The notes under the pieces were generated by a model, which saw only the letters and a program-made list of their open reading frames with translations, was not told the origin of the DNA and did no database searches. From Salinimicrobium sediminis (lineage in GTDB: Bacteria; Bacteroidota; Bacteroidia; Flavobacteriales; Flavobacteriaceae): a stretch of 64,000 bases of DNA. Positions within the stretch are counted from its first letter, which is position 1. Each line of letters starts with the position of its first letter. Location of the stretch: the NCBI RefSeq assembly GCF_900215295.1, contig NZ_OCMF01000005.1, positions 62,001 through 126,000 of the forward strand, in the 5' to 3' direction. This document shows positions 22,185 to 64,000 of this stretch, one piece after another. The translations under genes and the position numbers were made by a program.

Positions 22185-22901
22185 TCAGGTTTTTATTCTG
22201 AAGGTTTCCGTCACGGGATCGAAAACAATAAGGTCTGAAGGAAAGATGCTCTCAAAATGGCCTTTTTGAATGAGCTGTTTCGGCACATCCTGAATCACTT
22301 GTGAGGGTTTCATAAGAATGATCTTATCACAAAGCTGTAAGGCCAGATTGATCTCATGAGTGGCAAAAATAATGGCTTTCCCGGTCTGTTGGCTAAGTTG
22401 CTTTAAAAGTTTTAGCACCTGCGCCTTGTGGTACATATCCAGGTGGGAGGTGGGTTCATCAAGGATCATCATTTTGGTGTCCTGTGCCAGAGCCCGGGCA
22501 ATAAGTACTTTTTGCAGCTGACCGTCACTAAGTTCATAACACTTTTTGTTATGCAGGTCTTCAATGTTCACTAGAGCCAGCGCCTTTTTTACCATTTTTC
22601 GATCTTCAGCACTCAATGTACCTATCCAGTTGGTATAAGGCTGTCTTCCAAGAGCTACCAATTCGGCTACGCTGAGGTTCTTGGATAAAGGCTGTTCTGT
22701 AAGCACCAGGCTTATGAGCCTGGCCAGCTGTTGCGGCCGAATATCTTCACGAGCTTCAGTGTTTATAAGGATCTTTCCCAAAAGCGCAGGTTGTATTCCT
22801 GAAATGGTTCTCAAAAAAGTGGATTTTCCCACCCCGTTAATTCCAATCACAGCAGTGAGTTCCCCTTCAGCAACATCAATATCAATACCTGAAGCTACCA
22901 C
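22185..22901 (-). CDS. btuD: ABC transporter ATPase for cobalamin/siderophore uptake (BtuD/FecE type)
   Basis: 238 residues from a GTG at 22901. Walker A is GINGVGKST, the signature LSDGQLQK and Walker B MMILDEPTSHLDMYHK, with ATHEINLALQLCDKI carrying the switch His. The frame stays open upstream, and its translation there (ILKTESLRIGYRKKQLETV) looks like the missing first strand of such ATPases, yet no ATG or TTG is present in that stretch. The true start is therefore uncertain and may be a rare codon near 22955-22970. It energises BtuC and follows btuC closely. Confidence 0.85.
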   Translation of the reverse strand: MVASGIDIDVAEGELTAVIGINGVGKSTFLRTISGIQPALLGKILINTEAREDIRPQQLARLISLVLTEQPLSKNLSVAELVALGRQPYTNWIGTLSAEDRKMVKKALALVNIEDLHNKKCYELSDGQLQKVLIARALAQDTKMMILDEPTSHLDMYHKAQVLKLLKQLSQQTGKAIIFATHEINLALQLCDKIILMKPSQVIQDVPKQLIQKGHFESIFPSDLIVFDPVTETFRIKT

Positions 22902-22981
22902 TGTTTCCAGTTGCTTTTTCCTGTACCCGATCCTGAGAGATTCGGTCTTTAGAATGATATTTTTTATTGTTGTTCCTATGG

Positions 22982-24013
22982 CTAAAAGATGAATTTCCGT
23001 TTCCTTACCAGCAGCCAGATCACTACCGGCGCTCCTATTAGGGAAGTTATGGCATTTATAGGTAAGGTATGTTCGCTACCGGGTAATTGAGCAACAATAT
23101 CGCAGAGCAGCATCAAAATTGCTCCGCCAAAAATGACTGCAGGAAGAAGGATCTTGTGATCGTTTCCCGGCACCACCTGTCTTATCAAATGTGGAACTGC
23201 CAGGCCCACAAAAGCAATGGGGCCGGCAAACGCGGTGATGCTTCCGGCCAGGAGGCTCGTAGAAATGATCAACAGCGCCCGGTTATGGCCAATGTTCATG
23301 CCAAGGCTTCGGGCGTATTGCTCCCCCAACAGGAGAGAATTCAGATTTTTAATGCTGAAAAGTGCAATGGCAATTCCGGAGGTCCAGAAAATACTAAGTA
23401 CCCCCAGCTCAGTCCAGGAAAGATCGCCCACACTTCCGTAGGACCAGAAGACATATTGCTGCAGTTGTGCCGCCGGACTGAAATATGCCAGTACACTTAC
23501 CACCGCCGAACTCAAACTGGCAAACATTAACCCAATGATAAGAATGGCCATGGTGTCTTTTAATCTAACTGAAGCCAGCATCACGGCCAGGAGTACCAGT
23601 AGACTTCCCAAACTTGAAGCCAATACCAATCCCCAGCTTGAAAAAAGCACGCTACCTGCGAGTCCGCCGAAAAGAGAGGCACCCATAAGCACTAAAGCCA
23701 CACCCAGACTGGCGCCACTGCTTAAACCCAGAACATAAGGTCCTGCCAATGGATTTCGAAACATGGTTTGCATCAGCATTCCGCTAACCGCCAGGCCCGA
23801 ACCTGCCAAAACCGATGTAAGCGCCTTAGGGATCCTGTATTCCATAATGATATATTGCCAGTTGCTATTTTCGGCTTCCGAGGAAAAAAGAACTGTAAGC
23901 ACTTCCATGAATGGAATATTCACCGATCCCAGACTTATATTCAAAAACCAGGCGGCTACTGTACAAAGCAACAGTACGAGGAGGCTGATGATATAAGGAC
24001 GGGAGTTTTGCAA
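22982..24013 (-). CDS. btuC: FecCD/BtuC family permease
   Basis: 343 residues with about ten membrane helices. Family hallmarks include GLAVSGMLMQTMFRNPLAGPY near 78-98, ALLIISTSLLAGSITAFAGPIAFVGLAVPHLIRQ and the C-terminal LPINAITSLIGAPVVIWLL. It forms the inner-membrane channel for cobalamin or siderophores. Its TTG start at 24013 directly follows the btuF stop (TAG at 24014-24016), suggesting coupled translation. The cobalamin riboswitch and btuB next door favour vitamin B12 as the substrate. Confidence 0.88.
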   Translation of the reverse strand: MQNSRPYIISLLVLLLCTVAAWFLNISLGSVNIPFMEVLTVLFSSEAENSNWQYIIMEYRIPKALTSVLAGSGLAVSGMLMQTMFRNPLAGPYVLGLSSGASLGVALVLMGASLFGGLAGSVLFSSWGLVLASSLGSLLVLLAVMLASVRLKDTMAILIIGLMFASLSSAVVSVLAYFSPAAQLQQYVFWSYGSVGDLSWTELGVLSIFWTSGIAIALFSIKNLNSLLLGEQYARSLGMNIGHNRALLIISTSLLAGSITAFAGPIAFVGLAVPHLIRQVVPGNDHKILLPAVIFGGAILMLLCDIVAQLPGSEHTLPINAITSLIGAPVVIWLLVRKRKFIF

Positions 24014-25159
24014 CTATTCGAGGGGTTTGTAAAAGGTGGTTTTATAGTCGGGGAGCAGTTGAGGATGAAAAATGGAAATTAGATCCTTCAACACAAGATC
24101 GGGCCGGTTAGGAGCGAGTTCATAGAAAATAACTCCGCCGGTTTCCCCTTTTTCGCTGGCAAAGGTGAAAATATTCTGATCCTGAAATGCCTGGAACTGC
24201 CGGTAATGAGGAGAAGCCTCCTGCAATTCTTGATAAGCCGTGAACTGTGCCGGTCCTACCCAAAAATCGGCTTTTGCGGCTTCGGCCAACACTGCTTCAA
24301 GAGATAACGAAAGGCTTCCGGTGCCTTCGGTATCCTCAAAAAGGTAATCTGCATTGGCATCTTCAATAAAAATGGCCTGCCAGGAATTCCCTGCCGGTAA
24401 ATACCATTGATCCTTGTACATGGCGCCGGCCATAACCGTTGGTCGTTTATCTGCTTTTGCCGCCAAAGATTTTGCTTTGAGATACTCCTGTTCTACCTCT
24501 TCGAAAAAGGCATTTGCAGCCTCCATTTTTCCGAAGAAGGCGCCAAAGAATTTGATCCACTCCACTTTTCCTAAAGGAGAACTTTCGGTCCAGTCTGCAT
24601 TGAAGACAACAGGAATTCCGCTTTTTTGGAGGGTGTTGAGGCTTTTGTTGCTGCCATCAATGGAGAAACCAATCACCACATCTGGCCGGAGGTTCAAAAG
24701 AGTCTCTGTATTCAAAGCTTCATTTTTGCCGAGTTCTTTGATCTTGCCGTCCGCGATCAGGTTTCGGGTTTTTTCTGAAGAAATGTAGTCCAGGCCTGGA
24801 AAACCAATGAGGGTACTTTCCACACCGAGAATTTCCAAAGAGGGAATATGAGTGGTGGAGGTAACAACAACATGTTCCACCGGCACCTGGATCTTTTGAT
24901 CGAATTTTACATTTTCCGGCACTTCTGCATCTGCTTCAGCGAGTAAATATCTGTAGGAACGATCGGCATTAGGCCATGGGTTTTCAACGGTGACAATGGA
25001 ATAGTCACCGAAATCCACAATGGAAAGTCCGCTGGCATATTTGATCTCAATTTCTTTTCCGCCAGAGATCACCAATGGTTTTTTTCGTTTTTCATCGGTC
25101 TTACAACCAAGCAGGTGAAAAGCGAGCAGAAGGAAAAGGATGTGAGAGAAATGTTTCAT
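24014..25159 (-). CDS. btuF: Periplasmic-binding-protein lipoprotein for cobalamin/iron complex (BtuF type)
   Basis: 381 residues with a lipoprotein signal (FLLLAFHLLGCKTDEKR). The class III binding-protein layout is visible: VVVTSTTHIPSLEILGVESTLIGFPGLDYI, then LLNLRPDVVIGFS, a linker helix, then MYKDQWYLPAGNSWQAIFIEDANADYLF. It delivers ligand to BtuCD. It heads the leftward seven-gene run (btuF-btuC-btuD-rmuC-hydrolase-thioesterase-BASS). No riboswitch is seen in the short gap on this strand. Iron-siderophore is the alternative substrate. Confidence 0.85.
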   Translation of the reverse strand: MKHFSHILFLLLAFHLLGCKTDEKRKKPLVISGGKEIEIKYASGLSIVDFGDYSIVTVENPWPNADRSYRYLLAEADAEVPENVKFDQKIQVPVEHVVVTSTTHIPSLEILGVESTLIGFPGLDYISSEKTRNLIADGKIKELGKNEALNTETLLNLRPDVVIGFSIDGSNKSLNTLQKSGIPVVFNADWTESSPLGKVEWIKFFGAFFGKMEAANAFFEEVEQEYLKAKSLAAKADKRPTVMAGAMYKDQWYLPAGNSWQAIFIEDANADYLFEDTEGTGSLSLSLEAVLAEAAKADFWVGPAQFTAYQELQEASPHYRQFQAFQDQNIFTFASEKGETGGVIFYELAPNRPDLVLKDLISIFHPQLLPDYKTTFYKPLE

Positions 25160-25231
25160 TGCCGAATCAAAAGTAAGATTATTTAAATTTTTGGGAGTGG
25201 GATTAATTGAAATTGTTACTTTCGTATTGAA

Positions 25232-25525
25232 ATTTTGGTTCGAGTTTTTCTGAAATATCTTCAGAATTAAACAGCTCGATTAAAAGGGAATCAGGGGAAG
25301 TTAGAAATAAGAAGTACGAAGTACGAATTATTTTAACTTCCGAAGCGATCTCAAAGTGCAATTTCTAATTTCGTACTTCTAAGATCATACTTCAAACAAG
25401 CCTGAGCTGTTCCCGCAACTGTAAGCTTAGTCCGCCGCGGCGGATGCCTTTTGTACACTTCATACCACTGTTCTGTTAAGGATGGGAAGGTTAACAAAAG
25501 GACGCAAGCCAGGAGACCTGCCAAT
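25232..25525 (+). promoter_or_regulatory. Cobalamin riboswitch with an expanded P4
   Basis: The conserved parts are all present in order: AAAAGGGAA (25282-25290), P4 arms TCAGG (25291-25295) and CCTGA (25401-25405), GCTGTTCCCGCAACTGTAAGC (25406-25426, the P5 core), GGGAAGG (25484-25490) and a perfect B12 box, AAGCCAGGAGACCTGCC (25506-25522). It senses adenosyl- or related cobalamin and shuts down btuB when the ligand is plentiful. P4 carries about 105 nt instead of the usual small loop, and a 14-nt palindrome (25431-25444) extends another arm. Confidence 0.88.
25297..25397. repeat. Two opposed heptamer blocks inside riboswitch P4
   Basis: Left block 25297-25331: five units beginning GAA (GAAGTTA, GAAATAA, GAAGTAC, GAAGTAC, GAATTAT). 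Right block 25363-25397: TTCTAAT, TTCGTAC, TTCTAAG, ATCATAC, TTCAAAC. The blocks are roughly reverse complements and can pair, for example AGAAGTACGAA with TTCGTACTTCT. The right block closely matches the repeat at 978-1012. Confidence 0.75.
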
Positions 25526-25546
25526 TTTCTATCAATTAAAACCTTT

Positions 25547-25571: not shown

Positions 25572-27404
25572 ATGATGAAAAAAAACGTCTATTACCTATT
25601 AGTTTTTGTACTGCTGCAGGCCTTCCCGGCTCATGCACAACTAGAATCCCTGCAACAATTGCCCGAGGTGATCTTAAGTGATATTCATCTTCACCGCAGC
25701 TCTTCTACCAATCATGTGCAGGTGCTAAAGGATTCTGTGCTGGATCAAAATCAGCCGGCATTGACATCGGTTCTAAAATTCAATTCTCCGCTTTACTTTA
25801 GAGAAAATGGTCCGGGAATGGTGGCATCGGCATCTTTTCGGGGCACAACTGCTTCTCAAACAGCTGTGATCTGGAATGGGATCAATATCAATTCGCAGTT
25901 TAACGGGCAAACAGATTTTAATACGGTACTCACTTCGGGCTTTGATGAAGTAGCGATAAGATCGGGTGGAGGGAGCGTACTCTATGGAAGTGGCGCCATT
26001 GGAGGAAGTATACATCTCAACAACCGCTTTAGGTTCAATCGCGGACTTCAGAATAAAATTCAGTTAAGATATGGCAGTTTTGACACCCGTTACGGCAGCC
26101 TCGATTCGGAATATTCAAATGAAGATCTCAGCTTGCAGCTTGCTGTGGCGCGACATCAAAGCGATAATGATTTTCCTTATCCTGAATCTGATAAGATCAA
26201 TGACAATGGAGATTTTAGCAATGATCAGCTCTCTCTATCTATTGGGTACTTAATTGATCAAAACAATACTCTTAAATTCTACACCAACTATTTTGATGGA
26301 GACCGCGGTTTTTCAGGAACTCTGACTGCAGGTTCAAAGTCGAAATATGAAGACAGGAACTCCCGTAATCTGGTGGAGTGGAATAGCTATTTTAGAAACT
26401 TTAAATCGAATGTTCGCCTCGCTTACCTGGATGAACATTACAAGTATTTTGAAAACCGGGAAAGAGATAACTTCAGCTACGGAAGAGCTAAAACCGGTAT
26501 AATAAAATATGACCTCAGGTATAATTTGTCTTCAAAGGCAGGGATCACCGGAATTTTGGAATACCAGAATTCGAGAGGGGAAGGCAGTAATTTTTCCGGG
26601 ATCAACGAACGGAATATGGGTTCTGCGGGATTGCTTTTTATCCACGACCTTTCTCCGCTGAAGTATGAAATAAGCGCAAGAGCAGAATTTTCAGATAAAT
26701 ACAATTCTCCTTTGTTGTTTTCGGCAGGGGCAACTTATTCTTTTACCGATTTTTATTCAGTAAAGCTGAATGTCTCCCGCAATTACCGCATCCCCACTTT
26801 TAATGATCTCTTTTGGTATTCCGGAGGGAATCTGGACCTTAAACCGGAAAAATCCCTGCAGGCAGAGCTAGGTCAAAATCTGCATTTTTCAAATCTTAAT
26901 TTCAGTCTTACGGGATTTATTATCAACACCCGGGATCTCTTGCGCTGGGTGCCTTCTTCGGGAGGACTCTGGCTTCCCGAAAACACTAAAAAAGCCCTGA
27001 ATTACGGGTTTGAATCAACAGCCGACTGGCAGATAAAAATTCAAGAGCATAAGATCAGTTTTTCAGGAACTTACGCTTTTACAAAAGCCATGGACCAAAG
27101 CTCAGACAAGACCTTGATCTATGTGCCTATGCACAAGGGCACTGCATCTGCAGGTTATGAGATCAAAAACTTTTCCACCTACCTGCAAATCCTGTATAAC
27201 GGAGAGGTTTTTACCTCCTCGGATAATCACTATACCCTTCCCGGTTATACCCTGAGCAATCTCGGTTTCAATTATAATTTTTTGAAGGACCGGGTGCAGC
27301 TGGGATTGGTCGTTCAAAACATATTTGACCAAGAATATCAAAGTATGCCGTCCCGACCTATGCCGGGACGCTCCATTCAAAGTTCACTAACCTTTAATTT
27401 TTAA
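25572..27404 (+). CDS. btuB: TonB-dependent outer-membrane receptor, vitamin B12 type
   Basis: About 611 residues: signal peptide (YYLLVFVLLQAFPAHAQ), plug domain with SFRGTTASQTAVIWNGININ, SGGGSVLYGSGAIGGSIHLNN, then a 22-strand-type barrel ending GLVVQNIFDQEYQSMPSRPMPGRSIQSSLTFNF with terminal Phe. It imports cobalamin across the outer membrane using TonB energy. The cobalamin riboswitch directly upstream gives the substrate. I use the ATG at 25572 (25575 is possible); the longer frame from 25482 starts inside the riboswitch. The btuG-like gene follows 2 bp later. Confidence 0.92.
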   Translation: MMKKNVYYLLVFVLLQAFPAHAQLESLQQLPEVILSDIHLHRSSSTNHVQVLKDSVLDQNQPALTSVLKFNSPLYFRENGPGMVASASFRGTTASQTAVIWNGININSQFNGQTDFNTVLTSGFDEVAIRSGGGSVLYGSGAIGGSIHLNNRFRFNRGLQNKIQLRYGSFDTRYGSLDSEYSNEDLSLQLAVARHQSDNDFPYPESDKINDNGDFSNDQLSLSIGYLIDQNNTLKFYTNYFDGDRGFSGTLTAGSKSKYEDRNSRNLVEWNSYFRNFKSNVRLAYLDEHYKYFENRERDNFSYGRAKTGIIKYDLRYNLSSKAGITGILEYQNSRGEGSNFSGINERNMGSAGLLFIHDLSPLKYEISARAEFSDKYNSPLLFSAGATYSFTDFYSVKLNVSRNYRIPTFNDLFWYSGGNLDLKPEKSLQAELGQNLHFSNLNFSLTGFIINTRDLLRWVPSSGGLWLPENTKKALNYGFESTADWQIKIQEHKISFSGTYAFTKAMDQSSDKTLIYVPMHKGTASAGYEIKNFSTYLQILYNGEVFTSSDNHYTLPGYTLSNLGFNYNFLKDRVQLGLVVQNIFDQEYQSMPSRPMPGRSIQSSLTFNF

Positions 27405-33784: not shown

Positions 33785-33868
33785 ATTCAAGATTCAAGAT
33801 TCAAGATTCAAGATTCAAGATTCAAGATTCAAGATTCAAGATTCAAGATTCAAGATTCAGAATTCAGA
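33785..33868. repeat. Heptamer tandem repeat, ATTCAAG
   Basis: Ten perfect copies of ATTCAAG (33785-33854), then two ATTCAGA copies (33855-33868). It lies between a terminator and the end of purB. There are no spacers, so it is not a CRISPR array. Confidence 0.9.
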
Positions 33869-33893
33869 ATTTTTCCCACACATTCATATCAAC

Positions 33894-48317: not shown

Positions 48318-48324
48318 TAGTATT

Positions 48325-48408
48325 GAGATGTGAGATGTGAGATTTGAAATGTGAAACTGTAAAACAGATTTTGAAAAACCTTGAACCTTAGACCTTAAAC
48401 TTTAAACC
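48325..48408. repeat. Heptamer-phased leader filling the gap to the DUF6495 gene
   Basis: Twelve successive 7-bp units: GAGATGT twice, GAGATTT, GAAATGT, GAAACTG, TAAAACA, GATTTTG, AAAAACC, TTGAACC, TTAGACC, TTAAACT, TTAAACC. Only TTTTT separates the last unit from the ATG at 48414. The words drift from GA-rich to TTAAACC while the phase is kept. Confidence 0.6.
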
Positions 48409-48413
48409 TTTTT

Positions 48414-63417: not shown

Positions 63418-63712
63418 ATGAAAAGCATCAATTCTTTACATATTTTAATGCGGATTGTTTCAACTTTTATTTTTTCTTATCGTCTTTTCGGGCTGTAAAA
63501 TTAGAGCCGATGAAAAAGAAACCCGGTCTGCCTAAGAGATCGGGGTAACCCGAGGTTCCAGGACCTACGGCTGAGAGAGCTGCAAAGAGGAGTAGCAGCG
63601 GTGCTTATCTACATCTATAACAACTGCTAACGATAGAACAGAAGTCACAGAAGAATTGTCCAGGCTCAGAGAAGATCCAATTAGCAATGATCAATTAACA
63701 ATGATCAATTAA
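63418..63712 (+). pseudogene. Decayed lipoprotein gene
   Basis: ATG at 63418 opens a short frame (MKSINSLHILM), which must shift frame near 63450 to join GLFQLLFFLIVFSGCKIRADEKE, a clean lipoprotein signal. That second frame is interrupted by TAA (63533-63535), TGA (63572-63574) and TAG (63593-63595). It is otherwise readable to 63712 (TTANDRTEVTEELSRLREDP), ending inside the heptamer repeat. I do not recognise the parent family. The alternative is noncoding DNA with a chance signal-like stretch. The 63288-63894 gap otherwise holds only repeats. Confidence 0.5.
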
Positions 63713-63747
63713 CAATGATCAATTAACAATGATCAATTAACAAGGAT
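63678..63747. repeat. Heptamer tandem repeat, CAATTAA/CAATGAT alternating
   Basis: Ten 7-bp units: CAATTAG, then CAATGAT and CAATTAA alternating four times, then CAAGGAT. The two words alternate strictly, giving a 14-bp superperiod. Confidence 0.85.
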
Positions 63748-63844: not shown

Positions 63845-63893
63845 TTTAAACTTTAAACTTTAAACTTTAAACCTTAAACCTTAAACCTTAAAC
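63845..63893. repeat. Heptamer tandem repeat, TTTAAAC/CTTAAAC
   Basis: Four copies of TTTAAAC followed by three of CTTAAAC. It ends 1 bp before the stop codon of the mutase gene (63895-63897). Confidence 0.9.
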
Positions 63894-63894
63894 A

Positions 63895-64000
63895 TTATTC
63901 TATGAGTATTTCCAGCAGTTGGATTGCAGCTTCGCTGATCTTTGTTCCGGGACCAAAAACTGCTACTGCACCGGCATCGAACAGGAACTGATAATCCTGT
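63895..64000 (-). CDS. Methylmalonyl-CoA mutase, C-terminal end (cobalamin-binding domain), cut by window edge
   Basis: The last 34 residues are visible: [20 protein letters not shown] followed by [23 protein letters not shown] is the end of the cobalamin-binding domain of methylmalonyl-CoA mutase large subunits and related B12-dependent acyl-CoA mutases. The enzyme interconverts methylmalonyl-CoA and succinyl-CoA using adenosylcobalamin. Isobutyryl-CoA mutase or a separate B12-domain subunit cannot be excluded from so short a piece. Confidence 0.75.

Follow-up and report, generated by a model that had tools for sequence, protein, structure and literature searches.

The window (the whole 64,000-nucleotide stretch of DNA analysed here) holds one RNA family that scores above its cut-off in cmscan, the cobalamin riboswitch RF00174. 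The match spans the full model (1-189) with 82 bits and an E value of 1.1e-18, for a curated cut-off of 31.5 bits, and the 3.48-Mb genome holds no other match to RF00174. A gene for a TonB-dependent receptor lies downstream of the riboswitch, and an ABC importer is encoded divergently:

22185-25159, minus strand: divergent ABC importer (Pfam)
22185-22901, minus strand: ATPase of the importer (Pfam)
22982-24013, minus strand: FecCD permease of the importer (Pfam)
24014-25159, minus strand: Peripla_BP_2 part of the importer (Pfam)
25219-25539, plus strand: cobalamin riboswitch aptamer (RF00174, cmscan)
25291-25295, plus strand: 5' strand of P4, TCAGG (cmscan alignment, sequence)
25401-25405, plus strand: 3' strand of P4, CCTGA (cmscan alignment, sequence)
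25431-25444, plus strand: perfect G+C-rich palindrome TCCGCCGCGGCGGA, another variable arm of the riboswitch
25507-25522, plus strand: B12 box AGCCAGGAGACCTGCC (cmscan, sequence)
25572-27404, plus strand: TonB-dependent receptor, BtuB-like (Pfam PF00593, PF07715)

The best NCBIfam match of the receptor is TonB-B12, with 121 bits where the cut-off is 600, and NCBIfam matches to BtuF and BtuC across the importer also fall below cut-off. Because the BtuB, BtuF and BtuC models match below their cut-offs only, the B12 role of these genes rests on the riboswitch together with the gene set. The TCCGCCGCGGCGGA palindrome is found once in the window at up to two mismatches (0.01 expected), and by eye the relatives have other hairpin-like letters at this spot.

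Heptamer repeats between the P4 strands

The P4 strands TCAGG and CCTGA are 105 nt apart, and the insert between them (25296-25400) carries two blocks of heptamers in opposite orientation:

25297-25331, plus strand: heptamer block 1, five units, GAAGTTA GAAATAA GAAGTAC GAAGTAC GAATTAT (sequence)
25363-25397, minus strand: heptamer block 2, five units, the block 1 family on the minus strand (sequence)

Read in sevens on the plus strand, block 2 is TTCTAAT TTCGTAC TTCTAAG ATCATAC TTCAAAC. The autocorrelation of the insert at lag 7 has a z of 4.9, a value reached by none of 500 dinucleotide shuffles; the next lag is 14, with 3.2. The sequence-only reading had placed heptamers in the P4 loop of a cobalamin riboswitch, and the RF00174 score, the distance between the P4 strands and the cmscan alignment, which does put P4 at TCAGG/CCTGA and the long insertion in its loop, all agree with this. 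The same reading took the rest of the core to be intact, which holds for the B12 box but not for L4, where the usual loop letters are missing. By model score the element is a member of RF00174, one with an altered L4.

At E<=0.1 the genome contains 21 places that match the insert, the insert itself among them. GAAGTTA- and GAAGTAC-like units are mixed in the matching arrays, mostly in one orientation by eye. Fourteen of the 15 distinct arrays lie outside any ORF of at least 100 aa, with one of them just reaching an ORF's final base; the fifteenth (L016) is inside a 107-aa ORF. A three-unit heptamer pattern with one mismatch allowed gave 55 matches in the genome, a count that includes overlapping matches and the riboswitch, compared to 7 for the reversed control.

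When 12 genomes of 12 genera were searched at E<=0.01, with the riboswitches themselves included in the counts, the window insert matched its genome of origin 17 times, G134 twice and the remaining 10 genomes not at all. The insert of G110 matched G110 itself 9 times and each other genome 0-3 times. That of G133, a less clean case, had more matches in G134 (9) than in G133 (3), with 0-3 in each of the others. Two of the three tested inserts are therefore clearly like the repeats of their own genome, and the 17 matches of the window insert back the view that the genome's dispersed kind of heptamer sits inside P4.

Other heptamer arrays of the window are found at 964-1012, 33785-33871, 48324-48410, 63678-63747 and 63845-63897. 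Their units are mostly different (ATTCAAG, TGAGATG, AAACCTT, CAATTAACAATGAT and TTTAAAC), and several heptamer families coexist in the window, at times abutting.

P4 length, phasing and loop letters in relatives

RF00174 is present in all 12 Salinimicrobium genomes. Eleven of them have one riboswitch with a 7-periodic P4 of 114-164 nt (lag-7 z 3.1-6.7), while the P4 of the twelfth (G155, 74% complete) is 27 nt long; dispersed heptamers are few in G155, with 4 pattern matches vs 2 for the reversed control. Nine further RF00174 matches, from 6 of the 12 genomes and three of them below cut-off, have a short P4 by eye. Relatives with an equally long P4 but no heptamer phasing would speak against the sequence-only reading; within the genus the long P4 is heptamer-phased in 11/12 genomes. 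Aligned with L056, L061 has a gap of 14 nt, the length of two heptamers, which indicates that gain and loss of units take place within the insert.

Nine Salegentibacter riboswitches, upstream of the same receptor type as in the window, have a P4 of 36-111 nt. The lag-7 z is at least 3 in five of the nine, 2.6 in L080 and 1.8 in L076 and L077; L081 is too short for this test.

Across Flavobacteriaceae, RF00174 was found in 132 of 149 genomes (148 genera, Salinimicrobium being represented by two genomes). The P4 survey comprised 147 loci among the matches listed, own genus excluded, of which 141 were parsed and L042, L154, L162, L174, L195 and L239 left out. Of these parsed loci, again among the matches listed, 103 have a P4 plus loop shorter than 24 nt, 22 one of 24-44 nt and 16 one of at least 45 nt. 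Adding the best match from each of six weak-scoring genomes brought the number of parsed P4s to 147, of which 20 are at least 45 nt long, four of the six weak-scoring ones among them (among the matches listed).

In a scan of the family for P4 length and 7-nt phasing, as the sequence-only reading had suggested, 13 of these 20 long P4s, among the matches listed, have a lag-7 z of at least 3, compared to 1 of 232 flanking 100-nt controls. At lags 5, 6, 8 and 9 this level is reached by 0 of the 20 P4s and by 0, 4, 1 and 1 controls, respectively. The long P4s that fail the lag-7 test are L172, L200, L212, L214, L235, L240 and L259. The heptamers themselves vary across the family, from GATTAAC-like and GATTTAC-like to CGTACTT-like (L206).

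We also mapped the heptamer label on a tree of the downstream receptors (125 rows, quick LG+G4 search, long branches flagged), which excludes 7 of the 132 downstream proteins as unlike either receptor type. The label changes 18 times. We reject this number as a count of heptamer gains, since riboswitch and receptor have separate histories: L062 and L063 share 93% of the riboswitch DNA and 50% aa in the receptor, and L058 and L062 share 82% and 94%, respectively. These pairs suggest that a surface receptor may have been exchanged beneath a resident riboswitch. A second, distinct type of TonB receptor follows RF00174 riboswitches at L267, L268, L275, L277, L280 and others. Heptamer P4s occur in 11 of 47 cases of this second type vs 19 of 78 of the window's type, in what is a non-random set.

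The insertion site is of structural interest. As described in the excerpted text of PMC10907184, L4 and L6 interact through a conserved T-loop, and this contact organises the four-way junction of cobalamin riboswitches. Among the matches listed, T is the first letter of the loop in 100 of the 103 short P4s. This leading T is found in none of the 19 Salinimicrobium and Salegentibacter P4s and both edges are gone in all 19, as judged from letters and not from structure. The window's own L4 loop begins with GGAA and ends with CAAG. The 3' joint ends with AAG in 18 of the 19, and with AAGG in L078. Of the 16 P4s of at least 45 nt in other genera (among the matches listed), 15 keep the TG at the 5' edge and 14 the T at the 3' edge, L200 lacking both, so the insert of these P4s seems to be placed within the T-loop. 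The earlier idea that the repeats entered at a tolerated tip is accordingly doubtful, L4 being the site of the contact described in that text and its signature being lost in 19/19 P4s of the clade.

Fold of the arm and alternative explanations

The minimum-energy fold of the window RNA consists of P4 and two side-by-side hairpins, which we call A and B:

25296-25341, plus strand: hairpin A, closed by 25296-25304 / 25333-25341 (minimum-energy fold, compensatory changes, swap tests)
25342-25393, plus strand: hairpin B, its 3' arm in heptamer block 2 (minimum-energy fold, swap tests)
25394-25400, plus strand: 3' junction linker AAACAAG, its final AAG common to 11/11 Salinimicrobium inserts

The 5' arm of hairpin A belongs to heptamer block 1. 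In a swap test on the 11 Salinimicrobium inserts (20000 permutations), we compared the pairing energy of each insert's own strands with that of strands exchanged between species. Helix A (outer 12 nt) averages -9.00 kcal/mol with its own strands vs -4.25 when swapped, and helix B -8.17 vs -5.98, with 0 of 20000 permutations in either case; with the 8 less-related inserts p is 2e-4 for each. The junction between A and B was placed by eye in this test, and we repeated it without a chosen junction. The result is p<5e-5 for A and p=0.007 for B with 11 inserts, and p=3e-4 and p=0.0016 with the 8 less-related ones, relatedness among inserts being only partly removed in all these permutation tests.

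All nine pairs of helix A are kept in 9 of the 11 inserts and seven of nine in L059 and L070. At 8 of the 9 pair positions more than one standard pair type occurs, with compensatory changes. Between the window and its near relative L060 (riboswitch DNA 93%), for example, two neighbouring pairs have switched from G-C to A-U by compensated changes. The co-evolving parts are thus hairpins A and B, each with one heptamer arm and predicted to form a three-way junction with P4; the stem of repeat to repeat does not co-evolve.

Co-evolution of the arms is weaker outside the genus. Twelve inserts gave p=0.009 for halves and p=0.003 for the outer 15 nt, with 0.06, 0.19 and 0.10 for the outer 20, 25 and 35 nt; eight GATT-type inserts gave p=0.003 for halves. 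The Salegentibacter inserts (8 of 9 folded) have one stem each, not two hairpins, so the three-way junction is a genus-level trait. Some of them, when folded alone, form stepped hairpins in which short helices and small internal loops recur at 7-nt intervals, L079 being the most regular.

We then compared the folding of the inserts with that of the dispersed arrays, after dropping five overlapping hits and the riboswitch. Relative to shuffles, the 15 distinct arrays have a mean fold z of -0.2, with none at -3 or below, and the 11 riboswitch inserts a mean of -4.5 (range -2.2 to -6.0), a comparison not quite like with like because the dispersed 105-nt windows carry flanking DNA. The heptamers are thus not foldable by nature and fold where they are in the riboswitch. 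That the repeats were selected because they fold was already suggested from the letters; the swap tests, the compensatory changes and the fold z values all favour it. Folding appears to be under selection in the riboswitch, and selection is a simpler reason than template switching within the insert.

Taken together, we consider it likely, with a probability of about two-thirds, that dispersed intergenic heptamers of the lineage make up a peripheral RNA domain of the riboswitch, the 105-nt insert, which takes over the position of L4 and folds as hairpins A and B in a three-way junction with P4.

The repeats could instead be a neutral passenger that slipped into a tolerant loop, their complementarity resulting from template switching on imperfect palindromes and not from selection. 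P4 extensions do vary among near relatives, and the label changes on the receptor tree point the same way, separate histories notwithstanding; so does the gain and loss of units in 7-nt steps, as in L061, and short compensated tracts could still arise by template switching. However, dispersed arrays of the same family fail to fold, and the pairing of helix A has been kept through several changes, which makes this explanation unlikely.

A different fold would be one long hairpin atop P4, formed by pairing of the two oppositely oriented blocks, as the sequence-only reading proposed. The orientation stands and the arms 25297-25327 and 25363-25393 are 74% complementary. The long helix is also the minimum-energy fold in 5 of the 11 inserts (L055-L059), where it is better by 1.2-5.5 kcal/mol than the fold with helix A enforced, and it is the RNAalifold consensus on a MAFFT alignment, an alignment that lines up heptamers and not helix ends; 3 of its 19 pairs are changed on both sides in some sequence. 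Nevertheless, the swap test finds no co-evolution between block 1 and block 2: own strands give -21.25 kcal/mol vs -23.23 for swapped ones (p=0.96, 11 inserts; p=0.81, 8 less-related inserts). In the window sequence, whose minimum-energy fold is the two hairpins, the expected number of block 1 to block 2 pairs is 0.0. We therefore reject the long hairpin as the selected fold, despite the energies and the RNAalifold consensus, and regard it as improbable; in our view the long helix arises as a side effect of one repeat family being used in two orientations.

It is rather improbable, too, that the arm is bistable, with A plus B and the long helix alternating and so aiding switching or slowing the folding of the riboswitch. 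In the five inserts where the long helix wins, folding with helix A costs at most 5.5 kcal/mol, but the long helix does not co-evolve, and P4 has a pair probability of about 0.9 in 10 of the 11 inserts whichever fold wins, leaving no clear link to an expression platform. Finally, we set aside as very improbable a discrete mobile element (REP or MITE-like) that inserted with its heptamers, because the heptamers are indeed dispersed but by eye their copies share no common ends, are mostly single-orientation arrays and vary in length.

A proposed history of the arm and its precedents

For the peripheral domain with hairpins A and B, we propose the following history. Before the split of Salinimicrobium and Salegentibacter, heptamers would have entered L4 or expanded there, and their units would have turned over afterwards. 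Selection may have kept pairing confined to the insert, which would spare the aptamer core from mispairing with heptamers and let P4 stay formed. The joints of the predicted junction are 0 nt between P4 and A, 0 nt between A and B, and the 7-nt AAACAAG back to P4. The arm, or the AAG-ended joint, might make up for the loss of the contact between L4 and L6. Cobalamin binding presumably still makes the riboswitch repress synthesis of the receptor, and the role of the arm in it is putative.

Extended to Flavobacteriaceae, this leads to a more tentative proposal, for which the odds are slightly less than even: lineage-specific dispersed heptamers would recurrently build RNA arms, repeatedly entering or being renewed in L4, usually between the T-loop edges. 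The arm of Salinimicrobium and Salegentibacter would have replaced the T-loop, resulting in a four-way junction without the canonical L4-L6 contact.

The closest precedent, by analogy, is stem P6b in the group I intron of Nostoc tRNA-Leu(UAA). As far as the excerpted text of PMC4476775 goes, P6b is a stem-loop based on 7-nt motifs (TDNGATT or NNTGAGT), in which the motifs make the arms pair, the length shifts in repeat steps, side stem-loops appear, and one motif was repeatedly replaced by the other, by lineage. Both are peripheral stems of structured RNAs built on 7-nt repeats, as the periodicity of our insert indicates. Unlike the cyanobacterial intron described there, the present case is a cobalamin riboswitch of Flavobacteriaceae, with the arm in loop L4 and other heptamers.

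Dispersed heptamers are also known in the phylum. Direct repeats of TAACTGA are described in Beggiatoaceae, cyanobacteria and five Bacteroidetes including Gramella, according to excerpts of PMC4679880. They resemble ours as intergenic dispersed heptamer arrays, in Gramella beside other heptamers, and differ in the unit; the main text of PMC4679880 does not contain the word 'riboswitch'. Among the matches listed from open-licence PMC text, we found no description of heptamers within a riboswitch. Heptamer-built RNA stems and dispersed Bacteroidetes heptamers are thus already known, and what appears to be new, as far as these matches go, is their presence within a riboswitch. The element resembles other RF00174 members in score, B12 box and receptor context, the B12 substrate of the receptor being putative, and differs from the usual ones by its 105-nt two-hairpin arm in place of L4.

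This is a natural, many-times-sampled case of simple repeats becoming a component that folds, apparently under selection, within a regulatory RNA. The fold of the arm is kept in relatives while the letters change, suggesting that heptamers can be raw material for RNA parts. A tertiary contact described as organising cobalamin riboswitches seems dispensable or replaceable.

Vioque (1997) reportedly described STRR sequences, which are heptamers, within the RNase P RNA genes of heterocyst-forming cyanobacteria. Those are likewise short tandem repeats in a structured RNA gene, although in another RNA and another phylum. GAAGT-type heptamers were found in none of 11 Salinimicrobium RNase P RNA sequences (L305-L315); a weak second RNase P match (L316, G000:C4:333342-333405) has 20.7 bits, below cut-off. 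A different repeat, the palindrome TCCCGATAGCTATCGGGA, occurs at 52 places in the 12 genomes at up to one mismatch vs 0 for the reversed control. It lies within the RNase P RNA in 6 of the 11 Salinimicrobium genomes, in three different variable regions, and the sole copy of G149 is in its RNase P RNA. The palindrome constitutes a second case of repeats at the variable arms of a structured RNA.
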